Notes under the pieces: generated by a model | What the model was told of the DNA's origin: nothing | What the model saw: only the letters and a program-made list of their open reading frames with translations | Database searches by the model: none | Part shown: positions 2,045-44,584 of the stretch, in pieces | Numbering within the stretch: position 1 is the first letter of the stretch | Layout of the letters: every line of letters begins with the position of its first letter | Origin: Dulcicalothrix desertica PCC 7102 | GTDB lineage: Bacteria > Cyanobacteriota > Cyanobacteriia > Cyanobacteriales > Nostocaceae | Direction: 5' to 3' | Length of the DNA: 64,000 nt | Assembly: GCF_003991905.1 (NCBI RefSeq) | Contig: NZ_RSCL01000030.1 | Location: 1-64,000 of the forward strand | Translations under genes and position numbers: made by a program

Positions 2045-2052
2045 AAATTATT

Positions 2053-5013: not shown

Positions 5014-5046
5014 TACTATAATCCTTTCACTAAATTAAAATTGCTT

Positions 5047-17513: not shown

Positions 17514-17849
17514 GCATTGACACAGCTTAATGGTTATATGTATATATATGTATACATAAAAATAAAATCGAAATTTTTATTTAATTTTATTAATAATATT
17601 GGGTATATGTGCTTGAAAACCTTGACAAAGCTAGATTTATTCAATAAGTAAAAAAAGATAAACACAACATTTATATCTCTTTAAAAAGAGGTAAAGTTAA
17701 GACGAAGTATCGGCTGGCATAAGTATCTACTGGAACTTAAGAGCAAGATAATAACGATGTATAATTAGCGCGTCTCATTCTGAGCGCACATGTCAGAGCG
17801 CGATTATAACTGCCCTGCTTTCTATAACCTTTACCATGATAAGCGGCAT
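17514..17849. other. AT-rich upstream region of the DUF4912 gene
   Basis: Contains a TATGTATATATATGTATACA stretch near 17535 and a probable leader. The codons from 17790 to 17849 are in frame with the next gene but look non-conserved, so I treat them as untranslated. No other feature is visible. Confidence 0.45.
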
Positions 17850-28356: not shown

Positions 28357-29025
28357 ATGAATCGAATTCTCATCGCTGAAGATGAACCCCGCATTGCCGC
28401 TTTTATTGAAAAAGGTTTGCGTTCTCATGGTTTTACCACATCTGTGGCAGTTGATGCCAAATCTGCTGCTGATATGGCTAATAGTAGTATTTTTGACTTA
28501 TTGATTCTAGATTTAGGACTTCCAGGCAAAGATGGCTTGGAGATTTTAGAAGATTTACGCGGACAAGGTGAAAATGTCCCAGTGATTATTTTAACTGCCC
28601 GTGATGACATTCAGGATAAAGTTGCAGGTTTTGAAGCAGGCGCCGATGATTACATGACCAAACCTTTTCGATTTGAAGAATTGCTAGCTCGTGTTAAGGC
28701 AAGGCTACGTAGTAACTCTAGCAAACAAGCTACAGAAAGTACAGTCATTAAGCTCGGAAACATCGTTTTAGACTTACGCACACGTAAACTAAAAGTGGGC
28801 GAAGAAACAATTGAACTACCCGCACGCGAATTTACCCTAGCTGAAACCTTCTTCCGTCATCCCGGACAAGTATTAAGTCGCGAGCAATTGTTAGATAGGG
28901 TGTGGGGTTACGACTATGACCCAGGTTCTAATATTGTCGATGTCTATGTCGGCTATTTACGAAAAAAACTTGGCGGCAACTTAATTGAAACTGTGCGAGG
29001 AATGGGTTATCGTTTACGAACATGA
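28357..29025 (+). CDS. OmpR/PhoB-family response regulator of the glycan locus
   Basis: 222 residues. The receiver has E8-D9, phosphoacceptor D52 in LLILDLGLPGKDG and K in MTKPFRFEELLARV. The winged helix carries LPAREFTLAETFFRHPGQVL, then SREQLLDRVWGYDYDPGSNI and VDVYVGYLRKKL. It is the only DNA-binding regulator in the 28-44.6 kb locus, so it is the best candidate to bind the three repeat boxes downstream. The first box overlaps its own stop codon. Cognate kinase is probably the product at 29695. Confidence 0.92.
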   Translation: MNRILIAEDEPRIAAFIEKGLRSHGFTTSVAVDAKSAADMANSSIFDLLILDLGLPGKDGLEILEDLRGQGENVPVIILTARDDIQDKVAGFEAGADDYMTKPFRFEELLARVKARLRSNSSKQATESTVIKLGNIVLDLRTRKLKVGEETIELPAREFTLAETFFRHPGQVLSREQLLDRVWGYDYDPGSNIVDVYVGYLRKKLGGNLIETVRGMGYRLRT

Positions 29026-29066
29026 GAATTTTCTCATCAGGTTTTCATGACATATTCATTCACCTG
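29023..29066 (+). promoter_or_regulatory. Regulatory box 1 (TGAGAA-TT-TTCTCA plus 11-bp YTCAT repeats)
   Basis: The palindrome TGAGAATTTTCTCA begins on the response-regulator stop codon. CTCAT at 29033, TTCAT at 29044 and TTCAT at 29055 are exactly 11 bp apart. It lies about 220 bases before the receiver gene and could control the receiver-kinase-lipoprotein genes. Confidence 0.65.
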
Positions 29067-29287
29067 TAGGATATTGGTGTTTAGGCTTATATTTTTCGTT
29101 GTACAGATATTATTGTTTCAATGATAATTGTTTACATTCTGAATCCTGTATAAAGCCGCAAAAATAAATCAGGTAAAAAAAATTTGTAATTTTGGATAAA
29201 AATTGCATAAATGAATTTTGTTTACACCTATTGGTAATATGGAGGAGATCGAGTACGATTTTTGAATTAAAATCATAATTTATAACT

Positions 29288-29647
29288 ATGAACCGTATAT
29301 TAATCGCTGAAGATGAAGAACGTTTGGCTGCTTTGATGCAAAAAGGGTTTAAGAAAAATGGATTTGTAACCGCAGTTGCTCCCGATGGAGAAGAGGCATT
29401 AAAAATGGCTGTAGATGAAGATTTTGAGTTGCTATTGCTTGATTTAGGTCTACCAGTTAAAGATGGTTGGGCTGTATTAAAAGAACTTCGTAGTAAAGGA
29501 GAAAAGTTACCAATCATTATTGTAACTGCAATTAATGATGAATGTAATCGTGATATTGCGCTGAGTTTAGGCGCCAATGAATATGTAACTAAACCATTTA
29601 GGTTTGGTGATTTAATAGAAAAAGTGAAGTCTTATTTAAAAAAATAA
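29288..29647 (+). CDS. Single-domain receiver protein (CheY-like)
   Basis: 119 residues, a receiver only. It opens with the same ten residues as the upstream regulator (MNRILIAEDE) and keeps D52 in LLLLDLGLPVKDG and the Lys in YVTKPFRFGDL, then stops after the last receiver helix. It looks like a duplicated regulator that lost its DNA-binding domain. It may act as a phosphate sink or as a competitor for the adjacent kinase. It is 47 bases from the kinase gene. Confidence 0.88.
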   Translation: MNRILIAEDEERLAALMQKGFKKNGFVTAVAPDGEEALKMAVDEDFELLLLDLGLPVKDGWAVLKELRSKGEKLPIIIVTAINDECNRDIALSLGANEYVTKPFRFGDLIEKVKSYLKK

Positions 29648-29694
29648 ATTATAAAGCTAAATTAAAAATTATTAATTTTAGAGTTTGAGGTTTG

Positions 29695-31251
29695 ATGTCT
29701 AAAAATTTGAGCGTACAAAAATTAGAGGTCATCAATCGCTTAGAAAATGGCAAAGGCTTTTTTTGGGCAGCACGTACTCGTATTCTTCTATGGTATGTTG
29801 TAATAATTAGCTTTATATTTGCAGCTTCTATACCAGCATTTCGTCAAGCTTTGTACGCGCGCGTAAATGTGCGTGTGCATGAAGATCTTGAAGAAAAAAT
29901 AGCGATATTTAAGGAATTAATCTCTGAACAAAGCACAGCTACTAATAATGATATAATCTCAGAAGAGATTAAAGAGGCTGCTCAGTTACTTCGAGAATCA
30001 GACCAACGTCTTGCTAAATTTCCATCTTATAAAACAGAGTTAAAAGAATTTTTTGATGCATATTTAGGAAATCAACTTCCCCAAGACGATACATTTTTGA
30101 TTGTGCTAACAGATGGAAAATTTTATAAATCTAGCCCTAGAGCTAGACCTGCAATACTTGATAGAGATTCAAGAATAATCCGACGTTGGGCACTACTAAC
30201 TCAACCACAAAGAGGAGAAATACAAACGGAATATAGTGATGTTGGTGACATAATTTACTCAGCGAAGCCAGTAAAAATTAATGGCATAATCATGGGTGTA
30301 TTTGTAGTTGCTCACACTACTGCTGGAGAACGTGCGGAAGTACTGGAAGCTGTATCGGTGGTAATTACAGTCAGTTCATTCACTCTATTTGTTGCGTTAG
30401 TGCTAGCTTGGTTTGCCTCTGGAAAAATTCTTGCTCCTTTGCGCGCGCTTTCCAAAACTGCCCGTAAAATTGGAGAATCCGATTTAAATCAGCGTATTGC
30501 TGTCAAGGGAGAAGGAGAACTAGCGGAACTTGCAACAACTTTTAACGAAATGATGGATAGGTTGCAAGCTGCTTTTATCAGTCAAATAAATTTTATTAAC
30601 GATGCTGGGCATGAATTGCGAACTCCTATTACTATCATTAGTGGTCATTTAGAGTTGATGGATAATGACAACCCAGAGGAAATCGAAGAAACTTTAGTGA
30701 TAGTAATGGATGAACTCGACAGAATGAGTCGATTTGTGAATGATTTGGTTTTGCTAGCAAAGGCAGAGCGACCAGATTTTTTACAGTTAGAAACAGTTTG
30801 TGTCCAAACTTTAACAGAAGGGTTATTTATTAAAGCCAAAGCTTTGGCTGAACGTAACTGGTTACTAGAAAGTGTTTGTTCATGTCGAATTGTTGCTGAC
30901 CGTCAGCGTTTGACTCAAGCCATAATGAATTTGGCACAAAATGCGACGCAACATACCAAAAATACAGATACCATTGCTATTGGGTCAGCTATTAGTAAAG
31001 GTGAAATCAAATTTTGGGTGCGCGATAGTGGAGAAGGTATTTCACTTTCTGACCAACAAAGAATATTTGAACGTTTCGCGCGCGCTGCTAATAGTCGTCG
31101 TCGTTCTGAAGGTGCTGGTTTAGGGTTATCGATAGTTCAAGCTATTGCAGAAGCTCACGGCGGAAAAATCATCCTTGAAAGCCAACTTGGTACAGGCGCC
31201 ACGTTCACTATAGTGCTACCCTTAAAAGCACCCCTTAATAGAACGAATTAG
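29695..31251 (+). CDS. Membrane sensor histidine kinase
   Basis: 518 residues. There are two membrane helices (LLWYVVIISFIFAASIPAF near residue 33, and VVITVSSFTLFVALVLAWFA near 222) enclosing a roughly 170-residue external sensor with no recognised fold. HAMP follows, then H306 in INDAGHELRTPITIISGHLE. The ATPase domain has NLAQNATQHT (N box), RDSGEGIS (G1), FERFARA (F box) and GAGLGLSIV (G2). It is a complete kinase and the likely partner of the two receivers upstream. The ATG at 29695 is preferred over the TTG just before it. Confidence 0.92.
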   Translation: MSKNLSVQKLEVINRLENGKGFFWAARTRILLWYVVIISFIFAASIPAFRQALYARVNVRVHEDLEEKIAIFKELISEQSTATNNDIISEEIKEAAQLLRESDQRLAKFPSYKTELKEFFDAYLGNQLPQDDTFLIVLTDGKFYKSSPRARPAILDRDSRIIRRWALLTQPQRGEIQTEYSDVGDIIYSAKPVKINGIIMGVFVVAHTTAGERAEVLEAVSVVITVSSFTLFVALVLAWFASGKILAPLRALSKTARKIGESDLNQRIAVKGEGELAELATTFNEMMDRLQAAFISQINFINDAGHELRTPITIISGHLELMDNDNPEEIEETLVIVMDELDRMSRFVNDLVLLAKAERPDFLQLETVCVQTLTEGLFIKAKALAERNWLLESVCSCRIVADRQRLTQAIMNLAQNATQHTKNTDTIAIGSAISKGEIKFWVRDSGEGISLSDQQRIFERFARAANSRRRSEGAGLGLSIVQAIAEAHGGKIILESQLGTGATFTIVLPLKAPLNRTN

Positions 31252-31266
31252 CGCCTTTAAGTAGCC

Positions 31267-31728
31267 ATGTTAGAAAAAGTAATTTTTGTTTGGGCAATTA
31301 GTGCGCTGCTATTTGTACTTTTTAATGCTTGTAGCAACCTCGAAAATTCGCGAAAGCAAATTCTAGTACCAACAGTTGTAGAAAAAGCCTTCAACACCAA
31401 GTATTCTCCTGACATATCTCGGACTTGGCAAAAACATTATTATGGCTATGAAGCAGTTTTTATTCAAAATAATATTAAATACGAAGCAGAATTTTCAGCT
31501 AATGGTGAATGGCTAGAAACCGAATATTATGTATCAGAGAAAGAATTTCCTGAAGCTGTGTTACAAAAAATCAAAAAACAACGTCCTAACTTTGTGATTA
31601 CAAAATACGAAATTGAAATTACTCCTAAAGGAATATTTTACGAAGTAGATATTACCGACGGTGAAATTGAAGAAGAATTATATTTTGATGAAAAAGGTAA
31701 TCCTGCTCCTGATTTATACGAGGACTAA
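31267..31728 (+). CDS. PepSY-like putative lipoprotein
   Basis: 153 residues. The leader VIFVWAISALLFVLFNAC ends in a possible lipobox (FNAC). The mature part contains two PepSY-like (DUF2874) units: VVEKAFNTKYSPDISRTW, YGYEAVF and IKYEAEFSANGEW, then the parallel set FPEAVLQKIKKQRPNFVITK and FYEVDITDGEIEEELYFDE. Such proteins often sit beside two-component genes and are proposed to modulate envelope sensing. It begins 15 bases after the kinase stop, so it belongs to the same operon. Confidence 0.78.
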   Translation: MLEKVIFVWAISALLFVLFNACSNLENSRKQILVPTVVEKAFNTKYSPDISRTWQKHYYGYEAVFIQNNIKYEAEFSANGEWLETEYYVSEKEFPEAVLQKIKKQRPNFVITKYEIEITPKGIFYEVDITDGEIEEELYFDEKGNPAPDLYED

Positions 31729-31783
31729 ATTAGTGATATTTTATACATGTTACTTAGTTGCTTGTTATTTTAAATAATCTTCA

Positions 31784-31829
31784 TGAGAAGGTTCTCATAA
31801 AAATTTCATAAAGAACTCATCCGTAACAG
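31784..31829 (+). promoter_or_regulatory. Regulatory box 2 upstream of ugd
   Basis: TGAGAAGGTTCTCA, with CTCAT at 31794, TTCAT at 31805 and CTCAT at 31816 at exact 11-bp steps. From 31792 to 31829 it is nearly identical to box 3. It ends 73 bases before the ugd start. Confidence 0.72.
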
Positions 31830-31902
31830 CGATTATGTGCATAAGCAAGAAGACACCTAGTAAGTGTCTCTGACGTGCAAAATAATTGGGAGGATTACCG
31901 TG

Positions 31903-33306
31903 ATGCGTGTTTGCGTTATAGGCACAGGATACGTTGGTTTAGTTACAGGGGCATGTTTGGCACATATTGGGCATCATGTTATTTGTATTGACAACAACGC
32001 TGATAAAGTTGCCCTCATGCAATCTGGTCAATCTCCTATATTTGAGCCTGGATTGGCAGAAATTATGCAAGCGGCGATGCAAGCCGGAAACTTAGAATTT
32101 ACTACAGACTTAGGCGCCGGTGTCGCGCATGGTGAAATTTTATTTATTGCAGTTGGCACTCCTGCATTACCCACAGGTGAAAGCGATACACGATATGTTG
32201 AAGCAGTAGCGCGCGGTATTGGTTCGCATCTCAACGGTGGTTACAAAGTAATTGTCAATAAATCAACAGTACCAATTGGTTCAGGTGACTGGGTAAAAAG
32301 AATTGTGTTAGATGGAGTTGCCGAACGTCAACAAACAATTGCTGGATTTGACGTAGTTAGCAACCCAGAGTTTTTACGTGAAGGGTCTGCTGTCTTTGAT
32401 ACCTTTAACCCCGACCGAATTGTTTTGGGTAGCAACAGTACAAAAGCAATTGCGATGATGCGAAAACTTTATGCCCCAATCATTGCACGTAGGTTTGCAG
32501 AAGATCCATTTTTGCTTCCTGTTCCTGTGGTCGAAACAGATATTTCATCCGCAGAAATGATTAAATACGCAGCGAATGCATTTTTAGCGACGAAAATTAG
32601 CTTTATTAACGAAGTTGCGAATATTTGCGACCGAGTAGGTGCCGATGTTACTCAAGTCGCTCAAGGTATTGGTTTAGACTCACGTATTGGTAAAAAATTC
32701 CTCCAAGCTGGTATTGGTTGGGGTGGTTCGTGCTTTCCCAAAGATGTTTCTGCATTAATTCATACCGCTGTTGACTATGGTTATGATGCTCAGTTATTGA
32801 GAAAAGCGGTAGCTGTCAACGAACGTCAAAAGTTGATTGCGTTAGAAAAATTACAACAAGTTTTGAAAATACTCAAAGGTAAAACCATCGGGTTATTAGG
32901 TTTAACTTTCAAACCAGACACCGATGATATGCGTGATGCACCCGCTTTGATTTTAATCGAACAGTTGAATCGATTAGGCGCCAAAGTTAAAGCATACGAC
33001 CCAATAATTGCTCAAACTGGGATGGCACATGGTCTTTCTGACGTAAAAGTTGAAAGCGACGCAGTTCAACTTGCTGATGGCTGTGATGCATTAGTACTTA
33101 TTACCGAGTGGCAATCATTCCGTAAATTAGATTACGCCAAACTCGGTGAGAAAATGATAAGCAAAATCATCATTGATGGACGCAATTTCCTAGACCCAGA
33201 AGTTTTAACTGCTTCAGGTTTCCAATATATAGGTATTGGTCGTCCTACACACAAAGATATTACATCAACACCATCTGTTGGCGCCGAATTAGTGGCTACT
33301 TACTAA
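31903..33306 (+). CDS. ugd: UDP-glucose 6-dehydrogenase
   Basis: 467 residues from MRVCVIGTGYVG, with GGGAGG about 9 bases upstream. The NAD motif is GTGYVGLVTG. NKSTVPIGSGD, then PEFLREGSAVFDTFNPDRIV, gives the central domain. Catalytic C277 lies in GWGGSCFPKDVSAL. It makes UDP-glucuronate, a precursor for polysaccharides and glycolipids. GDP-mannose dehydrogenases share these motifs, but the glucose enzyme is the better fit. Its own regulatory box links it to the two-component genes before it. Confidence 0.93.
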   Translation: MRVCVIGTGYVGLVTGACLAHIGHHVICIDNNADKVALMQSGQSPIFEPGLAEIMQAAMQAGNLEFTTDLGAGVAHGEILFIAVGTPALPTGESDTRYVEAVARGIGSHLNGGYKVIVNKSTVPIGSGDWVKRIVLDGVAERQQTIAGFDVVSNPEFLREGSAVFDTFNPDRIVLGSNSTKAIAMMRKLYAPIIARRFAEDPFLLPVPVVETDISSAEMIKYAANAFLATKISFINEVANICDRVGADVTQVAQGIGLDSRIGKKFLQAGIGWGGSCFPKDVSALIHTAVDYGYDAQLLRKAVAVNERQKLIALEKLQQVLKILKGKTIGLLGLTFKPDTDDMRDAPALILIEQLNRLGAKVKAYDPIIAQTGMAHGLSDVKVESDAVQLADGCDALVLITEWQSFRKLDYAKLGEKMISKIIIDGRNFLDPEVLTASGFQYIGIGRPTHKDITSTPSVGAELVATY

Positions 33307-33330
33307 AGTGCATTTCAAACTCTTCTGTCT

Positions 33331-33358
33331 GTAGAGACGCGATTAATCGCGTCTCTAC
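33331..33358. repeat. Short palindromic repeat, GACGCGATTAATCGCGTC core
   Basis: A perfect palindrome of two 14-base arms, 24 bases after the ugd stop. Confidence 0.88.
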
Positions 33359-33397
33359 CGCGTTTCTATCGTCTATACAGAAATAATTAATTTTTGT

Positions 33398-33424
33398 TAG
33401 GGATGCGGCAATGCCGTGTCCCTA
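33398..33424. repeat. GC-rich hairpin repeat, second type
   Basis: TAGGGA-TGCGGCA and TGCCG-TGTCCCTA arms. It differs in sequence from the GTAGAGACG family and lies 40 bases after a copy of it, so two repeat types share this gap. Confidence 0.7.
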
Positions 33425-33523
33425 CATATGTATTTGTATTATTGTAATAATAAATCTATTGACAAAAAAAATACGTAAATATACTGTAACAACTGAGGCA
33501 AATTAATAACATCCTGTTTAGTT

Positions 33524-35073
33524 GTGAATAAAAAGATACTAATATTTGATAAATTTACTGTAAATATTCCATTCATGAATCTCAATCGGTGGTTCATATT
33601 TTTCGGCGAAGCGCGTACTCGGATTTTGATATGGTACTTAATATTACTCGGTTTTTTTGTTTCAGTCACGCTACCACTGATTCGTCAGCGCTTGTTTGCA
33701 CAAGTTCAGGCACGCGTGCAGGGTGAGTTAGTTGAAGAAATGGAGGAGTTTAAAAGTATCGTCGTACTTGGTTTGAAAAGCGCAGATGACGATGATAGAG
33801 AGCGATTGAGCCGTAGAAATGATGTTATTAATTGGGAGGCGCCAAAAAATATTAAAGACTAACTAGGGTCGTGGAGATTCATTTGACGGATGAACTACCG
33901 GATGATGATGTTTTTTACATCGCCATTCTTAATGGTGATTTTTACAAGTCAAATCCGCGAGGATTACCTGATGTTATGGATTTTGATTCTCCGTTAATGC
34001 AACGTTGGGAAAAGTTAACAAAACCGTCTCAAGAGGAAGAGGACTTTGATGATGAAAATATCGACAGCGTTCTCTATATAGCCGAACCCATTAGAATCAA
34101 CAACGAAATCATGGGTGTATTTGTAGTCGCACATACGACTGCGGGTGAACGCCAAGAAGCTTTAGATGCTATACAAATTGTAGTCGAGGTTACAATATTC
34201 GTACTGCTATTTGTATTACTTTTAACATGGTTGATATCGGGTAAAATATTATCTCCATTACGTCTATTAGTAAAAACAGCCCAAGAAATTAACGAATCCG
34301 AGTTAACTAAACGCATTACCGTGCAAGGGAGTGGTGAGATTGCCCAACTCACGACTACATTCAACGCGATGATGGATAGGTTAGAAGTCGCGTTTAGTAC
34401 TCAGCGCGATTTTTTGAATGATGCAGGTCACGAACTCCGTACTCCCATTACTATTATTCGTGGACACTTGGAACTTATGGGAGATGACCCAGAAGAACAA
34501 AGGGAGACTTTAGCGATAGTTATAGATGAGCTTGACCGCATATCTCGATTCGTTGATGATTTGATTTTACTAGCAAAGACGGAACGTCCTGATTTTTTGA
34601 AGTTAGAGGTGGTGAATATTGCCACTTTAACTGAGGAACTTTTTACTAAAGCCAAAGCTTTAGCAGTTAGGAATTGGCAATTTGATACATCCGCTACTGG
34701 TACAATGGTTGTAGACCGCCAAAGATTAACACAAGCTGTTATGAATTTGGCACAAAACGCTACACAGCATACTAAGGAAAGTGATACTATTTCGATTGGT
34801 TCGGGTGTATCTAAAGGCAAAGTACGTTTTTGGGTACAGGATACAGGAGAAGGAATTGCAACTGACGACCAAAAACGAATATTTGAAAGATTTGCGCGCG
34901 CATCAAACAGTCGCAGACGTTCGGAAGGTGCTGGTCTAGGGCTATCTATCGTTAGGGCTATCGCTCAAGCTCATGGCGGTAAAATATATCTCAAAAGTAT
35001 ATTAGGAACAGGGTCTACTTTTACGATTGTCTTGCCCCAAGATTCTACTAAAGAAGTGCCCTTAGATAAATAG
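33524..35073 (+). pseudogene. Second membrane histidine kinase, split by a frameshift
   Basis: The N-terminal part (first membrane helix ILIWYLILLGFFVSVTLPLI) ends at TAA 33860-33862 after PKNIKD. The rest resumes in the next frame at RVVEIHLTDELPDDDVF and runs through HAMP, the phospho-His (NDAGHELRTPIT) and a complete ATPase domain to 35073. Adding one base after GAC at 33857-33859 gives KDLTRVVEIHL and restores a single protein that parallels the kinase at 29695. It is a paralog broken by a one-base deletion or a sequencing error. Start codons at 33524 (GTG) or 33575 (ATG) are both possible. The downstream GTG at 33871 could still make a soluble-side fragment with one membrane helix. Confidence 0.85.
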
Positions 35074-35126
35074 AATTATTCTCACTACATGTTTTGTTTT
35101 TTATTTTGGCATTTTTACTACTTTCG

Positions 35127-35172
35127 TGAGAAGTTTCTCATAAAAACTTCATAAAGAACTCATCCGCATCAG
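35127..35172 (+). promoter_or_regulatory. Regulatory box 3 upstream of the glycosyltransferase operon
   Basis: TGAGAAGTTTCTCA followed by CTCAT, TTCAT and CTCAT at 11-bp steps (35137, 35148, 35159). It matches box 2 at all but a few positions. It ends 59 bases before the first glycosyltransferase, so spacing to the start is close to that of box 2. Confidence 0.72.
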
Positions 35173-35231
35173 ACAAACTGTATATAAGTAAAACACAGAA
35201 TAAATACAAAATCAAAACAAAGGAAAAAATT

Positions 35232-36473
35232 ATGCGACTGCTGGTCTACTCCCACGACGCATACGGACTTGGCAATATCCGTCGAATGTTAGCAATTTGT
35301 GAACACCTGCTAAGTGAAATTCCAGAACTTTCGATTTTGTTGCTGTCGGGTTCACCCATGCTTCAAGGTTTTCGCTTACCCAAAGGTTTAGATTACATTA
35401 AACTTCCTTGTCTAAACAGAGGTGAAACAGGTGAAGTTGCTGTTAAGTATTTAGGTATGGGTGTTGAGGAAACAGTTAAACTCCGTTCCGAGTTAATCTT
35501 ATCAGCAGCAATTAACTTTAGACCACATTTATTTTTAGTAGACAAAAAGCCTTACGGGTTAAAGAACGAATTAACTAGTACTCTAAAATATTTTGAAGAG
35601 AAACTTCCAGATACCAAACTTGTTCTACTATTACGAGATATTCTTGATTCTCCTGAAAAAACTATAAGCGAGTGGCAAAAACACCACTATCAAGAAACGA
35701 TAGAAAGGTTCTACCATCAAATACTTGTTGTTGGAACACCAGATGTTTTTGATGTAGCTAAAGAATATCAATTTTCACCAATTATTACTCAAAAAACTCG
35801 CTATTGTGGTTACATCGGTCGTCAACCAGGTTTCGTACATCCAAGCTTCATTAGAAAGCAATTAGATGTATCTAAAGAAGAAAGTTTGATTTTGGTAACT
35901 CCAGGTGGTGGTGAAGACGGTTATCAATTAGTTGACTCATATCTATCAGCTTTAGCACTGCTACCAGAACAAAATAGCATTAAAAGTTTAATAATTTGTG
36001 GACCGGAAATGCCTGCTGACCAAAAGCAACTCGTATTTCAGGCAGCAGAAAATAATCCAAGAGTGCAAATAGGGGAATTTACAGATGATTTAATGAGCTA
36101 CATGCAAGCAGCAGACGCAATTGTATCAATGGCAGGTTACAATACAGTTTGTGAAATTTTATCTGCTCGTAAACCTGCTGTAATTATACCGCGCAGTAAG
36201 CCATCTCAAGAACAATCAATTAGAGCCGAAAAAATGGCAAATCTGGGTTTATTTAAAGTAGTTCACCCAGATAATATTGACTCTCAAATTTTACTTGATA
36301 CTATTTTAAGTCAGTTACAAACTGAGAAAAGTTCAGATTATCAGTTAGATATGAACGGTTTACCGCGCGTTAGTGACCAAATTTTAATGTTAATGTCTCA
36401 ATCAGTTTACAACCGTCAACTCACAAAAATATACCAAGAATATTCTGCACCATCTCTAGTTGTTAGCCATTAA
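35232..36473 (+). CDS. MurG-like predicted glycosyltransferase (COG4671 type), copy 1
   Basis: 413 residues in two Rossmann-like halves. The N-terminal half starts MRLLVYSHDAYGLGNIRRML, and the C-terminal half has LILVTPGGGEDGY, then ADAIVSMAGYNTVCEILSAR and PAVIIPRSKPSQEQSIRAEK. The GYNT loop and following acidic residues resemble the nucleotide-sugar site of MurG. AAAGGAAAAA lies before the ATG. It is followed by a second, diverged copy 24 bases later. The acceptor is unknown. Context points to a glycan or glycolipid made with UDP-glucuronate. Confidence 0.85.
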   Translation: MRLLVYSHDAYGLGNIRRMLAICEHLLSEIPELSILLLSGSPMLQGFRLPKGLDYIKLPCLNRGETGEVAVKYLGMGVEETVKLRSELILSAAINFRPHLFLVDKKPYGLKNELTSTLKYFEEKLPDTKLVLLLRDILDSPEKTISEWQKHHYQETIERFYHQILVVGTPDVFDVAKEYQFSPIITQKTRYCGYIGRQPGFVHPSFIRKQLDVSKEESLILVTPGGGEDGYQLVDSYLSALALLPEQNSIKSLIICGPEMPADQKQLVFQAAENNPRVQIGEFTDDLMSYMQAADAIVSMAGYNTVCEILSARKPAVIIPRSKPSQEQSIRAEKMANLGLFKVVHPDNIDSQILLDTILSQLQTEKSSDYQLDMNGLPRVSDQILMLMSQSVYNRQLTKIYQEYSAPSLVVSH

Positions 36474-36497
36474 TTAATAACTAAGGAAAAATTATTC

Positions 36498-37751
36498 ATG
36501 AAAAAAATTATGTTTTACTGCCAATACCTAAGTGGTATGGGGCATTTAGTTAGAAGCACAGAAATTGTACGCAGTTTAGTTAAAGATTTTAAAGTTTATT
36601 TTATCAATGGTGGCCCTGTTATTGAAGGATTTGAAATGCCACCCGAAGTGGAAATTATTAGATTACCTGCGCTGTGGTTAGAAAATGGTCAATTTACAGT
36701 TGGTGATAGTTCTTTAAGTGTTGAGGAAGTTAAAGAGTTTAGAAAAAATCTTCTCATTTCTGAATTTGATAGAATTCAACCAGATTGTTTAATTACTGAA
36801 TTTTTTCCTTTTGGTAGACACAAGCTTTTGTTTGAATTACTTCCTTTTGTTGAGCATATAAAATCTACAAGTCCTAATACTAAAATAGCTAGTAGTTTAC
36901 GTGATGTGATTGGCAAAGAAAGTGATGTAGAAGAAGAGGAAATAATTTGTTATTTAATGAACCGTTTCTTTGATTTATTACTGTTCCACTCTGACTCAAA
37001 TTTCCAAACATTTACAGAAAGCTTCTCTAGACATCAGGATATAAAAAGCGACATTGTACATACTGGGTTTGTTACACAGGCGCCTACTTTCAACGATAAC
37101 GATATTGATATTAACAAACTTTGGGGCGCCAGTAATTCCAAAAAAACAAAAATATTAGTTAGCGTCGGCGGTGGTAGAATTGGACATGAGCTTCTAGAGA
37201 CTGTTGTGGAAGCTAGTTCGATTTTTGACAAAGGAATGCCTCATGTAGTCAAAATATTTACTGGACCTTTCATGCCAGAAGAGAAAGTAGAAAAATTAAA
37301 ACAAGCTGCTTCTAATATAGATAATATTCATATAGAAAGATATACTTCAGAGCTACTTGCCTACATGAAAACAGCTGATATATCTATTAGCTTAAGTGGG
37401 TATAATACTACTATGAACCTTCTTAGTACAGGAGTGCGCGCGATAGTTGTTCCAATTGGTCACGAAAATCAAGATAAAGAACAATTAGTGCGGACTATTA
37501 AGCTAGAACAAATGGGTCTCGTTGATTTTATTCATCCTGACAATTTAAAACCATTTTATCTAGCCGAGAAAATTCTTGAATGTCTCAGTAAAAAAGCTGC
37601 TAACACCGAGGATAAACCAGTTTTTGATATGAGTGGCGCCGAAAATACGAATAATTTTTTGAAAGAGTATCTTGATAAAATCCCCCCAACCCCCCTTAAT
37701 AAGGGGGGCTTTGAGAGTAATAATATACCTCTTACTCAATGTAAATCTTAA
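36498..37751 (+). CDS. MurG-like predicted glycosyltransferase (COG4671 type), copy 2
   Basis: 417 residues. The N-terminal part is MFYCQYLSGMGHLVRSTEIV, where the G-x-G-H loop is intact. The C-terminal domain has ILVSVGGGRIGHELL and ADISISLSGYNTTMNLLSTG, then VPIGHENQDKEQLVRT. It parallels the preceding gene domain by domain. The last 23 residues (starting PPTPLNKGGFES) are encoded by a GC-rich intergenic repeat and are not part of the fold. The original stop was probably near LKEYLDKI. Confidence 0.85.
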   Translation: MKKIMFYCQYLSGMGHLVRSTEIVRSLVKDFKVYFINGGPVIEGFEMPPEVEIIRLPALWLENGQFTVGDSSLSVEEVKEFRKNLLISEFDRIQPDCLITEFFPFGRHKLLFELLPFVEHIKSTSPNTKIASSLRDVIGKESDVEEEEIICYLMNRFFDLLLFHSDSNFQTFTESFSRHQDIKSDIVHTGFVTQAPTFNDNDIDINKLWGASNSKKTKILVSVGGGRIGHELLETVVEASSIFDKGMPHVVKIFTGPFMPEEKVEKLKQAASNIDNIHIERYTSELLAYMKTADISISLSGYNTTMNLLSTGVRAIVVPIGHENQDKEQLVRTIKLEQMGLVDFIHPDNLKPFYLAEKILECLSKKAANTEDKPVFDMSGAENTNNFLKEYLDKIPPTPLNKGGFESNNIPLTQCKS

Positions 37752-37792
37752 CTCCAGTTCCCCCCCTTATTAAGGGGGGGTTAGGGGGGATC
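37680..37792. repeat. Inverted pair of CCCCCCTTAATAAGGGGGG repeats across a stop codon
   Basis: One copy at 37680-37712 lies in the coding end of the glycosyltransferase. An inverted copy is at 37758-37792. Each folds on itself, and the two can also pair with each other around the stop codon at 37749-37751. This could attenuate transcription between the glycosyltransferase and the ABC gene. Confidence 0.85.
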
Positions 37793-37825
37793 AATTAGCA
37801 AATAAACACAAGGGAGAGATAGTTA

Positions 37826-39670
37826 ATGAGTAAGCGCTCCAAAGAAAAAGATTTAAAAGGAGTTATACCAGGAATCACAAGGATTTTGCGGAAATTTTCC
37901 CCATATATCCGTAAAGAAAGACTTTTAATTATTGGCTCTTTCTTCGCACTATTACTTGAAACTGGTTTACGTTTATTGGAGCCTTGGCCCTTAAAATATG
38001 TCTTTGACTATATTCTTATACCTGCTCATAACAACACCGCAAACACTGCAAATCACTTCGGTCTTAGTCCAATTGCATTGCTCACTTTATCAGCAATATC
38101 AATTGTAGTTATAACTGGAGTGGGTAGCATGGCTGCATACCTAAGTACTTACGGAATGTCCTTAGCTGTAATTAGAGTGTTATCAGAGGTACGTGGTAAT
38201 CTATTCAACCACTTACAAAGTCTCTCCCTCTCTTTCCACCAAAAGTCTAAAAGTGGTGACTTAATTACCCGCGTCACATCTGATATTGAAAAAATGCGGA
38301 CTGTCACTGTTAAAACAGCTTTACCTTTAATTACTAACGTTCTATCTCTGCTGGGGATGCTAGTAATCATGTTTTTTCTTAACTGGGAATTAGCGTTAGT
38401 AGCAATGACCATTTTTCCGATACTAACCTTGTTGACAAAAAACATGATTAGTCGCATTCGCAAATTTGCAAAACAACATCGTGACTCCGAAGGTGTTTTA
38501 GCTGCTACAACTGGTGAGACAATAGGCGCCATTAAGGTAGTGCAAGTTCTATCTCTCCAAGAAATGCTACACGGCATTTTTTCACAGCAAAACCAAAAAA
38601 GTCTAGACGAAGCTATCGAATCTTTAAGATTATCAGCAGCGCTAGAAAGAATTGTCCAGATTTTGATGGCAATTATTATAGCTATAGTATTATGGCGCGG
38701 TTCCCATGTAGTTTTGCATAAAGAACTTAGTCCTGGGGAACTGCTGGTATTTATGACCTACCTCAGAAATGCCTTTGAACCGATGCGGAAACTCTCCAAC
38801 CAAGTCGGACAAATAGCGAAAGCAACAGCTTCTGGAGAACGGGTAGTAGAACTTTTGGACTATGAGCCGAATGTACGCGATAACCCTAGTGCCAAAAAAG
38901 CACATCCCTTCTTTGGTACAGTACGATTTGAAAACGTTTCTTTCGGCTACGATACAGGTACAGAAATATTACAAGATGTCAGCTTTGTTGTTCAACCAGG
39001 GCAACAAGTCGCAGTAGTCGGACCATCTGGAAGCGGCAAATCAACTTTACTTAGTCTTATTCTACGTTTATATGACCCCGAAGCGGGTCGAATTTTAATT
39101 GATGGTCAAGATATTAGAGAATATACAATAGATTCTCTACGACAACAAATTAGCGTGGTTTTACAAGACAGCGTATTATTTGCTGCAAGTGTTAAAGAAA
39201 ATATAGCTCATGGTAGACTTGGCGCCACCGAAAAAGAAGTAGAAAAAGCAGCGCGTCTAGCTAATGCCCACGACTTTATAATGAAACTACCCCAAGGTTA
39301 CGACACAATTTTAAGCGAACGGGGTGGTACACTTTCGGGGGGACAAAGGCAACGTGTCGCAATTGCTCGTGCTGCAATTCGTCAGGCGCCAATTATTATT
39401 TTAGATGAACCAACCACAGGTTTAGATAATGCTAGTGAGCGTACTGTTAACGCAGCACTCGCAAAACTTACCGAAGGTCGAACGACATTTGTTATTTCTC
39501 ATGACCTGAGAGCGGTAGAAAATGCAGATATTATTCTGTATATAGAGGGTGAACGTGTTTTAGAGCAAGGTACTCATAGAGAGCTTATGCGTTTGGGTAG
39601 TCGTTACGCAACTCTATACCGTATGCAAACTATTATTACTAAAGGGGATACTTATGCACTTGAAGCTTAA
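37826..39670 (+). CDS. ABC exporter, half-transporter (MsbA-like)
   Basis: 614 residues. Six membrane helices lie in residues about 25-325, followed by a nucleotide-binding domain with GPSGSGKSTL (Walker A), LSGGQRQRVAIARA (signature) and IIILDEPTTGLD (Walker B). The family works as a homodimer moving lipids, glycolipids or peptides outward. Between glycosyltransferases and ugd it is a likely flippase or exporter for the product of the locus. AAGGGAGAG lies before the ATG. The end overlaps the phosphatase gene by 17 bases. Confidence 0.92.
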   Translation: MSKRSKEKDLKGVIPGITRILRKFSPYIRKERLLIIGSFFALLLETGLRLLEPWPLKYVFDYILIPAHNNTANTANHFGLSPIALLTLSAISIVVITGVGSMAAYLSTYGMSLAVIRVLSEVRGNLFNHLQSLSLSFHQKSKSGDLITRVTSDIEKMRTVTVKTALPLITNVLSLLGMLVIMFFLNWELALVAMTIFPILTLLTKNMISRIRKFAKQHRDSEGVLAATTGETIGAIKVVQVLSLQEMLHGIFSQQNQKSLDEAIESLRLSAALERIVQILMAIIIAIVLWRGSHVVLHKELSPGELLVFMTYLRNAFEPMRKLSNQVGQIAKATASGERVVELLDYEPNVRDNPSAKKAHPFFGTVRFENVSFGYDTGTEILQDVSFVVQPGQQVAVVGPSGSGKSTLLSLILRLYDPEAGRILIDGQDIREYTIDSLRQQISVVLQDSVLFAASVKENIAHGRLGATEKEVEKAARLANAHDFIMKLPQGYDTILSERGGTLSGGQRQRVAIARAAIRQAPIIILDEPTTGLDNASERTVNAALAKLTEGRTTFVISHDLRAVENADIILYIEGERVLEQGTHRELMRLGSRYATLYRMQTIITKGDTYALEA

Positions 39671-40859
39671 GGAATGCAAAGCAACCCGTGTTATTTTAGT
39701 GCGTCACGGGCAAAGCACTTATAATTCTCTGGGATTATATCAAGGTTGTAGTGACGAATCTGTATTAACTGAACTTGGATACAGCGATGCTCATAAAACT
39801 GGAAATTTCCTCCAAGGGTTAAAATTTGATGCAATTTACACCAGTTCTTTGCAGCGCGCACAACAAACTGCTAAAGAAATTTTAGGGGTAATGGCGCCTT
39901 CATTGAATCCTGAAAGCATTTGTGCAAGCGAATTATTACGAGAAACAGATTTACCCGCTTGGCAAGGAAAAGCGTTTGAATATGTGAAAGAAAACTTTCC
40001 TCAAGAATATCGCACTTGGAAACAGTTTCCCCATGAATTTCGTATGGAGATTCCTAATCAAAATACTTATATACACCCTGCATTAGACCTTTACGACCGA
40101 GTACATAAATTTTGGCGCCAAGTACTACTACGTCACGTTGGTGAGACTATTTTACTAGTAGTTCATGGTGGTACAAATCGTGCTTTAATTAGTACAGCCC
40201 TTGGCATTACTCCCGACCGCTACCACTGTATTCAACAATCAAACTGCGGTATTAGCGTATTGAATTTTCCTGATGGTACTTTAGAATCAGGGCGCCTGGA
40301 GATAATGAATTTGGCTTCCCATGTTGGGGAATATCTTCCTAAACCTCAAGAAGGTGGTAAAGGTTTACGTCTTCTGCTTATACCTTCGGGTGCCAGTGCT
40401 GAACAAATCAATAGTTTAGCAGAACAACTTAACTCAGTTAAAATCCGGTTTTGTTTAAGTAGTATAGTTGATGATTCGCACACCATAGTACAAAAAGTCA
40501 TTCAACATCATTCAGAAACAGTATATTCAGAAGTGTTTGAAGATGAGTTGCCAGAAGTTTGGCAAACAGGAATTATTAATCAAATTACTGCAAATTCAAA
40601 TAATTTAGTGACTGGTTTAATTGTCGCAAAAGAAGAAATTATCAAAAACTTAATTGGTCAAGCTCTTGGTATGGATTTAAATCAAGTAGAGCGGTTGCAA
40701 GTGGAAAAAGGAACTCTTTGTAGTATTCAATATCCTGGGGAGCATCATCCACCGATTGTACAGGGGATGAATTTGGGTGATGTTTATAGGGCGGGCAGGG
40801 ATGCCCGCTCCACAAGACAAGACAAGACAAGACAAGAAAAGAGTTATTTCAGTTTTTGA
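39654..40859 (+). CDS. Histidine phosphatase-family protein with a degenerate second domain
   Basis: 401 residues. Residues 10-215 form an active phosphoglycerate-mutase-like domain: H18 in LVRHGQSTYNSLG, YTSSLQRAQQTA, and the second His in LVVHGGTNRALIST. Residues about 235-385 look like a second copy in which the catalytic His residues are gone (LVTGLIVAKEEIIKNLIGQA replaces the VVHGG region). The last 20 or so residues come from a repeat and a pentanucleotide array. It may dephosphorylate a sugar or lipid intermediate. Confidence 0.82.
   Translation: MHLKLKECKATRVILVRHGQSTYNSLGLYQGCSDESVLTELGYSDAHKTGNFLQGLKFDAIYTSSLQRAQQTAKEILGVMAPSLNPESICASELLRETDLPAWQGKAFEYVKENFPQEYRTWKQFPHEFRMEIPNQNTYIHPALDLYDRVHKFWRQVLLRHVGETILLVVHGGTNRALISTALGITPDRYHCIQQSNCGISVLNFPDGTLESGRLEIMNLASHVGEYLPKPQEGGKGLRLLLIPSGASAEQINSLAEQLNSVKIRFCLSSIVDDSHTIVQKVIQHHSETVYSEVFEDELPEVWQTGIINQITANSNNLVTGLIVAKEEIIKNLIGQALGMDLNQVERLQVEKGTLCSIQYPGEHHPPIVQGMNLGDVYRAGRDARSTRQDKTRQEKSYFSF
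40789..40841 (+). repeat. GGGCGGGCAGGGATGCCCGC repeat with (ACAAG)n array
   Basis: A hairpin repeat is followed by five exact ACAAG units and one AAAAG unit (40812-40841). All of it is read as the phosphatase C-terminus. Five-base units change frame on slippage, so the tail and the distance to the stop can vary. Confidence 0.85.
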
Positions 40860-40887
40860 TTAATGAGTAATTATTGAGGAGAATAAG

Positions 40888-42180
40888 ATGAAAATAGCAT
40901 TTATAGTTTGGCGTTTTCCAGTATTGTCAGAAGCTTTTATTCTTAATCAGATTATAGGTTTAATTCAACGTGGGCATGATGTTCATATTCATCCTGTGAA
41001 TGGTTTACCAAAAAACTATACTGGTAAAGTTCATCCTGTTGTTGAAGAATATAAATTACTTGAGCGTACTTATTTTCCTCCTATTGTTCCTGAAAACTGG
41101 TATGTACGTTTCTTAAAGGGTGTGGGTTTGTTTTTAAAAAATATCCATAAAGGTTCTTTCAAAACTTTGCAGCTTTTGGATTCTAGTAAATATGGTGATG
41201 AAGTCGCAAATTTAAAAACTTTGTATCGAACTGTATCACTACTTCAAGATGGTTCGTATGACATTATTCATTGTCAATTTGGAACTTTGGCGCCTATTGC
41301 TCTTGCTTACCGCGATGCTGGTATAATTAAAGGTAAGTTAATTACTACGTTCCGTGGTATCGATATTAGTAAATATGTTCAAGAAAACGGCGCCAATGTT
41401 TATGACCAACTTTTTAAAGAAGGCGAATTTTTTCTTGCCAACTGTGAATTTTTTGGCAACCGTGCGATTAATTTAGGTTGTGACGCAAAAAGACTTGTAG
41501 TTCACGGTTCAGGACTAGATTGCACTAAATTCTCCTTCAAGCCTCGTCCTAAACCTGTTAATGGTAAAATTAAAATTGCCACTACAGGGCGCCTGGTAGA
41601 AAAGAAAGGTATCGAGTATGCTATTCGTGCTATTGCAAAAATCGCAGCATCACACCCAAATATTGAATATAATATAATTGGAGATGGTGAATTAAAACAA
41701 CAATTTGAACAGCTAATTAATGAATTGAATGTTGGACATATCGTCAAATTATTAGGATGGAAACAGCAAAAAGAAATTGTCGAAATTCTTGATAATTCTC
41801 ATATTTTTATTGCTCCCAGTGTTACTGCTGCTGATGGAAATCAAGATGCACCAGTTAATACTCTCAAAGAAGCAATGGCAATGGGTTTACCAGTAATTAG
41901 CACCATACATGGTGGTATTCCCGAATTAGTTCAAGATGATATCTCTGGATTTTTAGTACCAGAACGTGATGCTTCGGCTATTGCCAAAAAATTAGTTTAT
42001 TTAATAGAACATCCCGAACGCTGGGAAAACATGGGTGCTTCAGGACGCGCGCGCGTTGAAGAAAAATACGACATGAATAAGCTCAATGATGAATTAGTCG
42101 CAATTTATCAGCAAATGCTAACTTCTAACTTACCTGAGCAAGTGCAGGCACAAAATACACAAGAGTTCATTCGTGTTTAA
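40888..42180 (+). CDS. Glycosyltransferase family 4, tandem copy 1
   Basis: 430 residues with GT-B fold. N-terminal KIAFIVWRFPVLSEAFILNQ is typical of colanic-acid-type glycosyltransferases. The C-terminal domain has KIATTGRLVEKKGIEYAIRA, GWKQQKEIVEIL, then APVNTLKEAMAMGLPVISTI and HGGIPELV, with E in the E-x7-E motif. GAGGAG precedes the ATG. It transfers a sugar from a nucleotide donor with retention. It is closely similar to the next gene, so the pair arose by tandem duplication. Confidence 0.92.
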   Translation: MKIAFIVWRFPVLSEAFILNQIIGLIQRGHDVHIHPVNGLPKNYTGKVHPVVEEYKLLERTYFPPIVPENWYVRFLKGVGLFLKNIHKGSFKTLQLLDSSKYGDEVANLKTLYRTVSLLQDGSYDIIHCQFGTLAPIALAYRDAGIIKGKLITTFRGIDISKYVQENGANVYDQLFKEGEFFLANCEFFGNRAINLGCDAKRLVVHGSGLDCTKFSFKPRPKPVNGKIKIATTGRLVEKKGIEYAIRAIAKIAASHPNIEYNIIGDGELKQQFEQLINELNVGHIVKLLGWKQQKEIVEILDNSHIFIAPSVTAADGNQDAPVNTLKEAMAMGLPVISTIHGGIPELVQDDISGFLVPERDASAIAKKLVYLIEHPERWENMGASGRARVEEKYDMNKLNDELVAIYQQMLTSNLPEQVQAQNTQEFIRV

Positions 42181-42192
42181 ACTAAAATAATT

Positions 42193-43479
42193 ATGAAAGT
42201 AGCATTCTTTGTTGCACACTTTCCTGTGCTATCAGAACCATTTATTTTAAACCAAATTGCAGGTACAATAGAGCGTGGACACGAAGTTGATATCTACTCA
42301 CTCGATGGACCACCTGAAGACACATCAAAAGTACATCCATTAGTAGAGCAATATAATCTGCTAGAGCGTACAATTTACGCACCAACTCGACCTGAAAATG
42401 AACTATGGCGTTGGATTAAAGGCTTAGGTCTACTGCTAGTCAACTTTCATAAAAATCCTTCAGTTTGTCTGCAATTACTCAATACTTCTCGATATGTTAG
42501 TCAAGCGAAATCATTAAAAATGCTCTACCGAGCAATACCTTTTTTGGAAAAGAAATCATACGACATTATCCACTGTCAATTTAGTACCTTGGGTGTGTTT
42601 GGTGTGTGGTTTCGGCAACTTGGTTTAATTGAAGGCAAATTAATTTCAACATTTCGCGGTTCAGACATTAGTAAGTTCCTACCGAAATGGGGTGATAAAG
42701 TTTATAAGGAATTATTCCAAGAAACAGATTTTTTCTTAGCTAACTGTGACTTTTTCAAAAATAAAGCAGTTGCGCTAGGTTGCGATGCCAATATGATTCA
42801 TGTTCATGGTTCAGGAATTGATACCAGTAAGTTTTTCTTTAAAGAGCGTCACTTTCCTAATGATGGAGTTATTAGAATTGCTACTACAGGGCGCCTTGTA
42901 GAAAAAAAGGGTATTGAATATGTAATTAGAGCTATTGCGAAAGTAGCGACAACTTACCCATGTTTAGAATATAATGTAATTGGTGATGGTACACTCAGAG
43001 AAAAGTTTGAAGCCTTAAGTGCAGAACTCAATGTTAGCCATATCGTTAAGCTGCTAGGATGGAAACAGCAAAAAGAAATTGTTGAAATACTCGATAAATG
43101 TCATATATTTGTTGCTCCTAGTGTAACTGGTAAAGACGGAAATCAAGACGCACCAGTTAATACTCTCAAAGAAGCAATGGCAATGGGTTTACCTGTAATT
43201 AGTACATTACATGGTGGTATTCCCGAATTAGTAGAAGATGGAATTTCTGGATTTTTAGTACCAGAGCATGACGCAGACGCTATTGCAGAAAAATTAATTT
43301 ATCTTATCGAACATTCAGAAGATTGGGCAAAAATGGGTAGAGCAGGTCGCGCGCGTGTTGAAGCAAATTATGACATGACCAAGCTAAATGATGAATTAGT
43401 TGAAATTTACCAACAAATGTTGAATGGTGAGTTGACTGGAAATTTGACTGTAAGACCTTTGGTTTTAGCTAATAAATAA
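42193..43479 (+). CDS. Glycosyltransferase family 4, tandem copy 2
   Basis: 428 residues, colinear with copy 1 throughout. Shared segments include LVEKKGIEYVIRAIAKVA, LLGWKQQKEIVEILDKCHIF and DAPVNTLKEAMAMGLPVIST. The N-terminal acceptor half has diverged more than the donor half, which suggests the same sugar donor and a different acceptor. It follows copy 1 after 12 bases with only a weak ribosome site. Confidence 0.92.
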   Translation: MKVAFFVAHFPVLSEPFILNQIAGTIERGHEVDIYSLDGPPEDTSKVHPLVEQYNLLERTIYAPTRPENELWRWIKGLGLLLVNFHKNPSVCLQLLNTSRYVSQAKSLKMLYRAIPFLEKKSYDIIHCQFSTLGVFGVWFRQLGLIEGKLISTFRGSDISKFLPKWGDKVYKELFQETDFFLANCDFFKNKAVALGCDANMIHVHGSGIDTSKFFFKERHFPNDGVIRIATTGRLVEKKGIEYVIRAIAKVATTYPCLEYNVIGDGTLREKFEALSAELNVSHIVKLLGWKQQKEIVEILDKCHIFVAPSVTGKDGNQDAPVNTLKEAMAMGLPVISTLHGGIPELVEDGISGFLVPEHDADAIAEKLIYLIEHSEDWAKMGRAGRARVEANYDMTKLNDELVEIYQQMLNGELTGNLTVRPLVLANK

Positions 43480-43483
43480 ATAA

Positions 43484-43506
43484 ACAGGCAGGATGCCTGT
43501 TCCACA
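43484..43506. repeat. GGCAGGATGCCTG hairpin repeat
   Basis: AACAGGCAGGATGCCTGTT is self-complementary around GAT. It sits between the second GT4 gene and the GT2 gene, and is related to repeats at 40789, 44745, 48334 and 56849. Confidence 0.7.
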
Positions 43507-43540
43507 ATTGTAAAACAATTATAATGGAGTATATAATAAA

Positions 43541-44584
43541 ATGACAGAACCAATTGTTACACTAGTTGTCGTACCTCGCGAACGTTTTAGCTGTACACAA
43601 GAATCATTAGAAAGTATTTACGAACATACAGATTTTCCATTCAAATTAATTTACGTTGATGGAAACTCACCTGCTAAAGTTCGTCGCTATCTCGAAACAA
43701 AAGCACAAGAAAAAAACTTCAAACTCATTCGTACAGATTACTACCTTTCTCCCAACCATGCACGTAACATCGGTTTAAGTCATGTTGATACTAAATACTT
43801 AGTCTTCGTTGATAACGATGTTGTGGTTTCTCCAGGTTGGTTAAAAGCTTTAGTAGACTGTGCAGAAGAAACTGAAGCTACTGTTGTTGGACCTCTAATG
43901 TGCGAAAACAAACCTATCCACCAAAGAGTACACTTTGCTGGTGGAGAAAGTCATGTAGTTATTGACGTTAAAGGTCGGCGCCATCTACGGGAAAAAATGT
44001 ACAAACAAGGTCATAATGCAGTAGAATTACTTCCCCAACTTCAGCGCACCGAAACAGAATTATCAGAGTTTCACTGTACCCTAGTTCGCACTGATATATT
44101 TGAGCGCATTGGCTATCTTGATGAAGCGATGCTCAATACCAAAGAACACCTTGATTTTTGCATGAATGTCGCTGCTTCAGGAGGTAAAGTCTATTTTGAG
44201 CCAGCTAGTTTAGTTACCTACGTACCAGGACCACCTCTAGAATGGACAGATTTACATTTCTATATGTTGCGTTGGAGCGATGCTTGGACTTTGGCAAGTT
44301 TAGAACGCATCCGTGAAAAATGGAATTTATGCGAGGATGGTTATTTTAAAACCAAGTACAAAAAATTAGGTGTTAGACGCATCTCAACAATTATCAAACC
44401 CTTTGTACGTAAAGTCAGCTTCGGGCAAGAAAATAAACCCTTAAAAAGGTTCCTCAAAAAGCTTGACAGAAAAATCAACCGCTATCTCACCGACCGCTAC
44501 GCAGCTAGACTACCCCAACGCAAAATTCAACTTCCTCAAATTGTAAATCAACAGGCGCCGACAAAAGAATTATCCAAAGTTTAA
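43541..44584 (+). CDS. Glycosyltransferase family 2
   Basis: 347 residues with GT-A fold. VTLVVVPRERFSCTQESLES opens the nucleotide-binding domain, followed by FVDNDVVVSPGWLKALVDCA with the D-x-D metal motif (DND). The acceptor region has GGESHVVIDVKGRRHLREKM and a long basic C-terminal tail with no membrane segment. It ends the plus-strand locus and is followed by repeats and no further glycan genes. Donor and acceptor are unknown. Confidence 0.88.
   Translation: MTEPIVTLVVVPRERFSCTQESLESIYEHTDFPFKLIYVDGNSPAKVRRYLETKAQEKNFKLIRTDYYLSPNHARNIGLSHVDTKYLVFVDNDVVVSPGWLKALVDCAEETEATVVGPLMCENKPIHQRVHFAGGESHVVIDVKGRRHLREKMYKQGHNAVELLPQLQRTETELSEFHCTLVRTDIFERIGYLDEAMLNTKEHLDFCMNVAASGGKVYFEPASLVTYVPGPPLEWTDLHFYMLRWSDAWTLASLERIREKWNLCEDGYFKTKYKKLGVRRISTIIKPFVRKVSFGQENKPLKRFLKKLDRKINRYLTDRYAARLPQRKIQLPQIVNQQAPTKELSKV

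Follow-up and report, generated by a model that had tools for sequence, protein, structure and literature searches.

A repeated operator-like box and its candidate OmpR/PhoB-family regulator in Dulcicalothrix desertica, with counterparts across Cyanobacteria and Actinobacteria

Gene content of the locus and layout of the box

The window analysed here, a stretch of 64,000 nucleotides from Dulcicalothrix desertica PCC 7102 (contig NZ_RSCL01000030.1, positions 1 to 64,000), carries a two-component locus that opens with a response regulator gene at 28357 and continues with genes for a receiver-only protein, a sensor histidine kinase (HK1), a PepSY-like lipoprotein, Ugd, a second kinase (HK2) and a run of glycosyltransferase and ATP-binding cassette (ABC) exporter genes (Table 1). 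Our subject is a short repeated box that recurs among these genes, and the regulator that may act on it. An initial annotation had described the box at 29023, 31784 and 35127 as the palindrome TGAGAA-NN-TTCTCAT followed by YTCAT units spaced exactly 11 bp, and had placed its copies upstream of the receiver/kinase/lipoprotein genes, ugd and the glycosyltransferase operon. The sequence bears out this layout, these positions and the near-identity of boxes 2 and 3, which differ at 2 of their first 40 bases. The accompanying statement that the window holds no other copy does not stand: on the minus strand, positions 6588-6624 carry a fourth box (TGAGAATTGTCTCATCAAATTTTCATATATTTCTCAT) that departs from the pattern at a single base, ahead of an open reading frame (ORF) with RTX repeats.

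In its full form the box consists of an inverted half-site, ATGAGAA, facing the first of three head-to-tail units (TTCTCAT/TTTCAT/YTCAT) that stand 11 bp apart. Three units at 11 bp, as in an OmpR/PhoB-type operator, are present in all four window boxes and in relatives.

Table 1. Boxes, predicted -10 elements and associated genes in the 64-kb window
Feature	Coordinates	Strand	Remarks
Box 1	29023..29059	+	Opens with the TGA stop codon of the regulator gene at 28357
Box 2	31784..31820	+	Ahead of ugd
Box 3	35127..35163	+	Ahead of the glycosyltransferase/ABC operon
Box 4	6588..6624	-	Ahead of the RTX gene; absent from the initial annotation
Predicted -10 of box 1	29070..29075	+	GATATT; columns 48-53
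Predicted -10 of box 2	31831..31836	+	GATTAT
Predicted -10 of box 3	35174..35179	+	CAAACT
Predicted -10 of box 4	6572..6577	-	ATATAT; not in the usual A49 register
OmpR/PhoB-family response regulator, proposed box binder	28357..29025	+	PF00072 (receiver), PF00486 (Trans_reg_C), above cut-off
Receiver-only protein resembling the regulator's receiver	29288..29647	+	PF00072 only
Sensor histidine kinase HK1	29692..31251	+	HAMP, HisKA, HATPase_c
PepSY-like lipoprotein	31267..31728	+	PF11396 E=1.2e-15; lipobox by eye
ugd, UDP-glucose/GDP-mannose dehydrogenase family	31903..33306	+	PF03721, PF00984, PF03720
Second kinase HK2	33524..35073	+	Two ORFs in different frames (33524-33862, 33871-35073)
Box-3 gene run	35232..44584	+	Domain scans; ORFs 42193-43479 and 43541-44584 named by eye
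RTX calcium-binding repeat protein	5872..6480	-	PF00353; start codon by eye; boxed paralog on C36
PpiC-type protein, ABC exporter, HlyD family protein	545..5772	-	Exporter with C39-like and cNMP-binding domains

Occurrence of the box in the window and the genome

Searched with up to three mismatches, the full 37-base pattern (TGAGAANNTTCTCATNNNNNTTTCATNNNNNNYTCAT) matched four times in the 64-kb window and not once in 100 dinucleotide shuffles. The 15-bp palindrome alone, allowing at most two mismatches, gave eight matches (four places, each on both strands) against 2.84 expected, and 3 of the 100 shuffles also reached eight. The palindrome is therefore the weaker evidence when taken by itself, and the direct repeats contribute most of the signal.

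Across the whole 11.4-Mb genome, the same search (at most three mismatches) recovered six boxes, each within a single mismatch: the four in the window, one on contig C36 and one on contig C5. The reversed pattern, used as a control, had no match in the genome. Another genome search returned 53 matches including the six boxes; the remaining 47 equalled the reversed-pattern count (47) and were set aside. Scanned for copies at random places, the genome thus holds only these six, and the regulator hypothesis stands. The designation of the boxes as a local regulon is too narrow, with boxes at 6588, on C36, on C5 and also in Actinobacteria. The C36 box lies ahead of a paralog of the window RTX gene (L008, ORF 1637-2251).

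The C5 box, a perfect match (G000:C5:190326-190362, minus strand; L271), is flanked by a kinase gene and by the gene of another regulator. Its 37 bases are identical in genome G115, which suggests that a second two-component system may be under cross-control at this site.

Co-occurrence of box and regulator in cyanobacteria

The true pattern was found in 72 of 145 genomes of the family, compared with 6 of 145 for its reverse. When regulator presence was defined as at least 68% identity, 68 of these genomes carried regulator and box, 10 the regulator only, 4 the box only and 63 neither (Fisher p=4e-25, a value inflated by the kinship of the genomes). Among 292 genomes of the phylum, with regulator presence set at E<=1e-85, the corresponding numbers were 17, 8, 4 and 263. 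The co-occurrence counts include, from the table, G018 and five genomes whose matches were unlisted (G022, G079, G102, G128 and G139). This comparison strongly supports the proposal that the OmpR/PhoB-type regulator at 28357 acts on the boxes. Loss of the box from relatives that keep the regulator was likewise looked for; the box is kept in 68 of the 78 regulator-bearing family genomes, and the hypothesis withstands this comparison.

Box and regulator are also close in position. The distances concern 134 boxes among the matches listed, with the listed boxes of G018 and some others left out; 73 of them lie within 20 kb of a regulator. Sixteen of the 134, box 1 included, begin exactly one base after the last matched codon of a regulator, so the regulator gene ends at the TGA of the box as its stop codon.

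The regulator at 28357 fell below the curated cut-off of all 25 NCBIfam models shown (of 100 matched), those for PhoB, MtrA, PmrA, RppA, NblR, RpaB, QseB and TctD among them.

In Oscillatoria sp. PCC 10802 (L041, 8667), a box at the regulator stop codon is followed by a gene for a small secreted protein, which presumably resembles OB-fold (BOF) proteins.

A fixed -10 spacing downstream of the box

From the neighbourhoods of regulators and boxes we gathered 113 unique cyanobacterial sites at up to three mismatches, of which 94 have at most two. None of the 113 lies wholly within a called ORF. A same-strand gene start follows within 700 bp in 105 of the 113, and a divergent gene lies on the other side in 38. 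These gene starts were called with simple ORF pickers and include errors; box 1, for instance, was assigned to the kinase and not to the preceding receiver-only gene.

Beyond the search pattern, two columns are strongly conserved among the 94 sites, with A at column 49 in 83% and T at column 53 in 90%. The two occur together in 88 of the 113 sites, and none of the other offsets from 40 to 69 gives more than 27. This A-N3-T arrangement (nAnnnT), starting 11 bases past the box, resembles a -10 element, and just over half of the cyanobacterial sites have T at 45 and G at 46 ahead of it. Since the -10 begins 11 bases after the box, the last two repeats would occupy the place of the -35 element, whose position (columns 25-30) falls on and between them. 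OmpR/PhoB-type sites typically lie near the -35 region. The cyanobacterial sites thus show a class II-type geometry, in which the operator covers the -35 position at a fixed distance from the -10, with some target groups departing from it.

Counterparts of the unit in Actinobacteria

Among the matches listed, the best relatives of the regulator outside cyanobacteria were eight actinobacterial loci with 57-64% identity, and a Rhodococcus regulator used as query was found in 47 of 249 genomes of that order. We examined 27 actinobacterial regulator loci, namely the eight best listed matches and 19 chosen from the 47 genomes, 9 of these 19 having already shown a site in an earlier 3.65-kb scan. 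The matrix was built from cyanobacterial sites, and no -10 column was used in finding the actinobacterial ones. A site of at least 8 bits was present in 25 of the 27 loci and one of at least 0 bits in all 27, and the reversed matrix reached neither level in any of the 27. Among 69 loci of distant regulators (0.99 Mb) a single one, L073 at 12.2 bits, reached 8 bits, and none of 40 column shuffles of the matrix did so in these 69 loci.

The spacing to the -10 is the same as in cyanobacteria: A49 and T53 are each present in 91% of 45 actinobacterial sites, a set that combines 42 of at least 8 bits with three weaker, hand-added ones (6.7, 4.8 and -0.6 bits; L043, L037) and includes a few that overlap on both strands. 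In 9 of the 45 a start codon falls at column 60-61, as in leaderless messages. When sites were picked by the direct repeats and the -10 only, the TGA of the inverted arm was found in 24 of 27 loci, compared with 0 of 69 controls.

The proteins are related as well. The recognition-helix region is 71% identical to that of the window regulator in 36 actinobacterial rows and 46% in 15 outgroup rows. HK1 shares 41% identity over 489 amino acids with the kinase beside the Rhodococcus regulator, and 26% over 220 amino acids (E=1.7e-9) in the sensor part alone, so that kinase as well as regulator of the two-component pair is related between the phyla. In a quick regulator tree, cyanobacterial and actinobacterial rows shared one clade (support 99) to the exclusion of the 15 outgroup rows, the actinobacterial rows making up one side of it (support 79); long branches were flagged, L038 and L044 among them. 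A row from the family of the window (G065) grouped there with Nostoc flagelliforme, so that this family is probably Nostocaceae. The shared unit could reflect either transfer or descent.

Homology across the phyla extends to genes beside the sites: six loci have SLC13 transporters (E 9e-97 to 2e-79), one has a MurG-like glycosyltransferase (E=2e-77) and many have the kinase (E<=1e-90). Other actinobacterial targets are Asp-rich or low-complexity secreted proteins, so named by sequence reading, a DUF4956 protein and a protein that we take to resemble carbonic anhydrase. Asp- or repeat-rich secreted proteins with DDRDD, TPDD or SPVSA repeats follow boxes at L342 7857, L343 8496, L344 8665, L345 8691, L346 7054 and L347 9079, and several copies are present in L037 and L077.

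Genes at the boxes

First genes downstream of the 105 cyanobacterial sites were most often MurG-like glycosyltransferases (41), followed by ugd (14), receiver-only proteins (12), kinases (9), SulP transporters (7), SLC13 transporters (5), RTX proteins (4) and small secreted proteins with Ser/Asn repeats and an Asp tail (3), others occurring once or twice; these group names rest on one member each or on sequence reading. In the window, the gene run behind box 3 encodes two MurG-like glycosyltransferases, an ABC exporter, a histidine-phosphatase-type protein, two GT4-like proteins and one GT2-like protein, and would form one transcript. The Ugd protein would, given its presumed substrate, make UDP-glucuronate. 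The receiver-only protein is a possible phosphate sink or modulator. HK2 occupies one frame in relative L183, and its split in the window may be a mutation or an assembly error. Beside the RTX gene, the PpiC-type, exporter and HlyD family genes make up, by their domains, a type I secretion unit, probably read as a common transcript.

Evaluation of alternative explanations

Taken together, the co-occurrence, the position of the boxes and the promoter geometry make it very probable that the box is the operator of the regulator at 28357 and that box and -10 form an activator-dependent promoter. Several observations weigh against this reading. Fisher p-values overstate the association because the genomes are related. 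No box at up to three mismatches accompanies the regulator in 10 of the 78 regulator-bearing genomes of the family and in 8 of the 25 of the phylum, and a box occurs with no regulator at the cut-off in four genomes of each set. The A49/T53 pair is present in only 1 of 4 RTX promoters, 0 of 5 cyanobacterial SLC13 promoters and 7 of 12 receiver-only promoters. Because the pattern itself served to find the cyanobacterial sites, its fixed letters are to some extent bound to look conserved, and independence from site selection is limited to the -10, the A-rich spacers and the split tests. In the 3.65-kb actinobacterial loci, 17 of 30 have a site of at least 8 bits and 13 have none, and the strict three-unit pattern has a site in just 1 of the 11 closest loci among the matches listed. 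Sites picked by the palindrome alone carry the -10 in 10 of 27 loci, compared with 5 of 69 controls.

It is quite unlikely that the boxes mainly serve another OmpR-type regulator, for instance the orphan paralog at C8:327620 or the neighbour of the C5 box, with the link to the gene at 28357 being one of neighbourhood only. The C8 paralog is 63% identical to the window regulator with nearly the same recognition helix and could also bind the box, which counts against an exclusive role for the gene at 28357. In genome G583 a 63% identical regulator is followed after 11 bases by a perfect box, and G050, which counts among the four box-only genomes of the family, has a regulator of 64% identity. 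However, the 16-kb neighbourhood of the C8 paralog contains no box (best score -6.4 bits), two genomes of the same genus, G030 and G076, have no regulator closer than one of 63% identity and no box (G076 has one reversed-control match), and boxes gather at regulators of the 28357 type and at their actinobacterial relatives. The C8 locus was accordingly ruled out as a second home of the box. The paralog itself (L351 7621-8283; G000:C8:327620-328282) has no kinase ORF among those listed around it.

That the regulator represses from the boxes instead of activating is also unlikely. The sites do extend into the promoter, so that a protein sitting on them could keep polymerase out, but the repeats at the -35 position leave no room for a consensus -35, and the same distance to the -10 recurs in two phyla, as expected from contact between protein and polymerase. 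It is very improbable that the boxes are chance matches, copies of a mobile repeat or RNA hairpins (terminators, for instance), although a short hairpin could fold from the palindrome and box 1 shares bases with a stop codon. The absence of matches in 100 shuffles, the contrast between 6 and 72 of 145 genomes for reversed and true pattern, the avoidance of ORFs (0 of 113 sites wholly inside) and the -10 at a fixed 3' offset in 88 of 113 sites led us to reject a chance repeat, a mobile element and a terminator hairpin alike.

Proposed mechanism

We propose that the box is the operator of a two-component regulon for envelope and secreted genes, reaching across the genome. HK1, the likely partner kinase, would sense an envelope signal and phosphorylate the regulator at 28357, which would then bind the four half-sites and recruit RNA polymerase at promoters that have no -35 element. 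The box stands in the place of that element, from where it would act as an activator site. Box 1 would switch on the regulator's own kinase and the receiver-only protein, providing feedback; box 2 would turn on ugd, box 3 the glycosyltransferase/exporter run, and box 4 together with the C36 box the RTX proteins. The output would be material for the cell surface and for secretion, some of it anionic or able to bind cations. Transcription starts would map at about column 60-61 (about 29083, 31844, 35187 and 6564).

The nature of the targets suggests a common theme, in which RTX proteins, a uronate donor and Asp-rich proteins would serve cation binding, and SLC13 and SulP transporters anion uptake. 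More tentatively, and with the odds somewhat against this reading as a whole, the kinase, regulator, inverted-plus-tandem operator and fixed -10 might form an ancient unit, kept in or exchanged between Cyanobacteria and Actinobacteria, that steers both surface material that is anionic or binds cations (RTX proteins, uronate polysaccharide, Asp-rich secreted proteins) and the anion transporters SLC13 and SulP, perhaps in answer to divalent cations or cationic envelope stress.

Relation to known systems and significance

PmrA/BasR controls ugd in enterics from an operator that differs from the box. It resembles the present system in regulator architecture and in having ugd as a target; the regulator at 28357 scores 188 bits on the PmrA model against a cut-off of 330. 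The mycobacterial MprA box may be a further candidate for the same site; a literature search on it in connection with direct repeats turned up no paper. The nearest solved structures are those of Mycobacterium tuberculosis PrrA, PhoP and RegX3, which match over the full length with the same domain layout (PrrA 186 bits) but are distant from the regulator at 28357, the comparison being of protein only.

The direct-repeat units of Streptomyces PhoP are 11 nt long, GtTCAccnnnn (PMC6754071). OmpR/PhoB regulons of this kind share with ours a winged-helix response regulator and head-to-tail 11-bp units, whereas the box differs in its YTCAT unit, in having three tandem units plus an inverted half-site and in its targets. 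MtrA, an OmpR-type regulator of actinobacteria, recognises a degenerate direct repeat of about 11 bp (PMC6265350). Its repeat sequence differs from that of the box, and the regulator at 28357 scores 192 bits on the MtrA model against a cut-off of 300. PolR of Microlunatus was rejected as a relative, being described in its source as a DevR homolog and not as OmpR-type. Tandem repeats of 11 bp are typical of OmpR/PhoB regulators, and the extra inverted half-site seen in both phyla is a variant feature.

Searches of the open-licence literature turned up no account of the box or of its proposed regulon, and one may exist elsewhere. If the reading is true, a regulator, an operator and an operator-to-(-10) spacing that are alike in two phyla would be a rare and testable case of long-term conservation of a promoter switch. 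From this reading, transcription starts can be predicted to within a few bases, and candidate targets emerge for two-component systems of which we found no description. In cyanobacteria it would offer a handle on the control of surface polysaccharide and calcium-binding RTX proteins.

Elsewhere in the window, positions 17790-21587 on the plus strand hold an ORF of 1265 amino acids with NWLDN segments repeated in mid-protein and an N-terminus that, by eye, is like those of phosphate-binding proteins.

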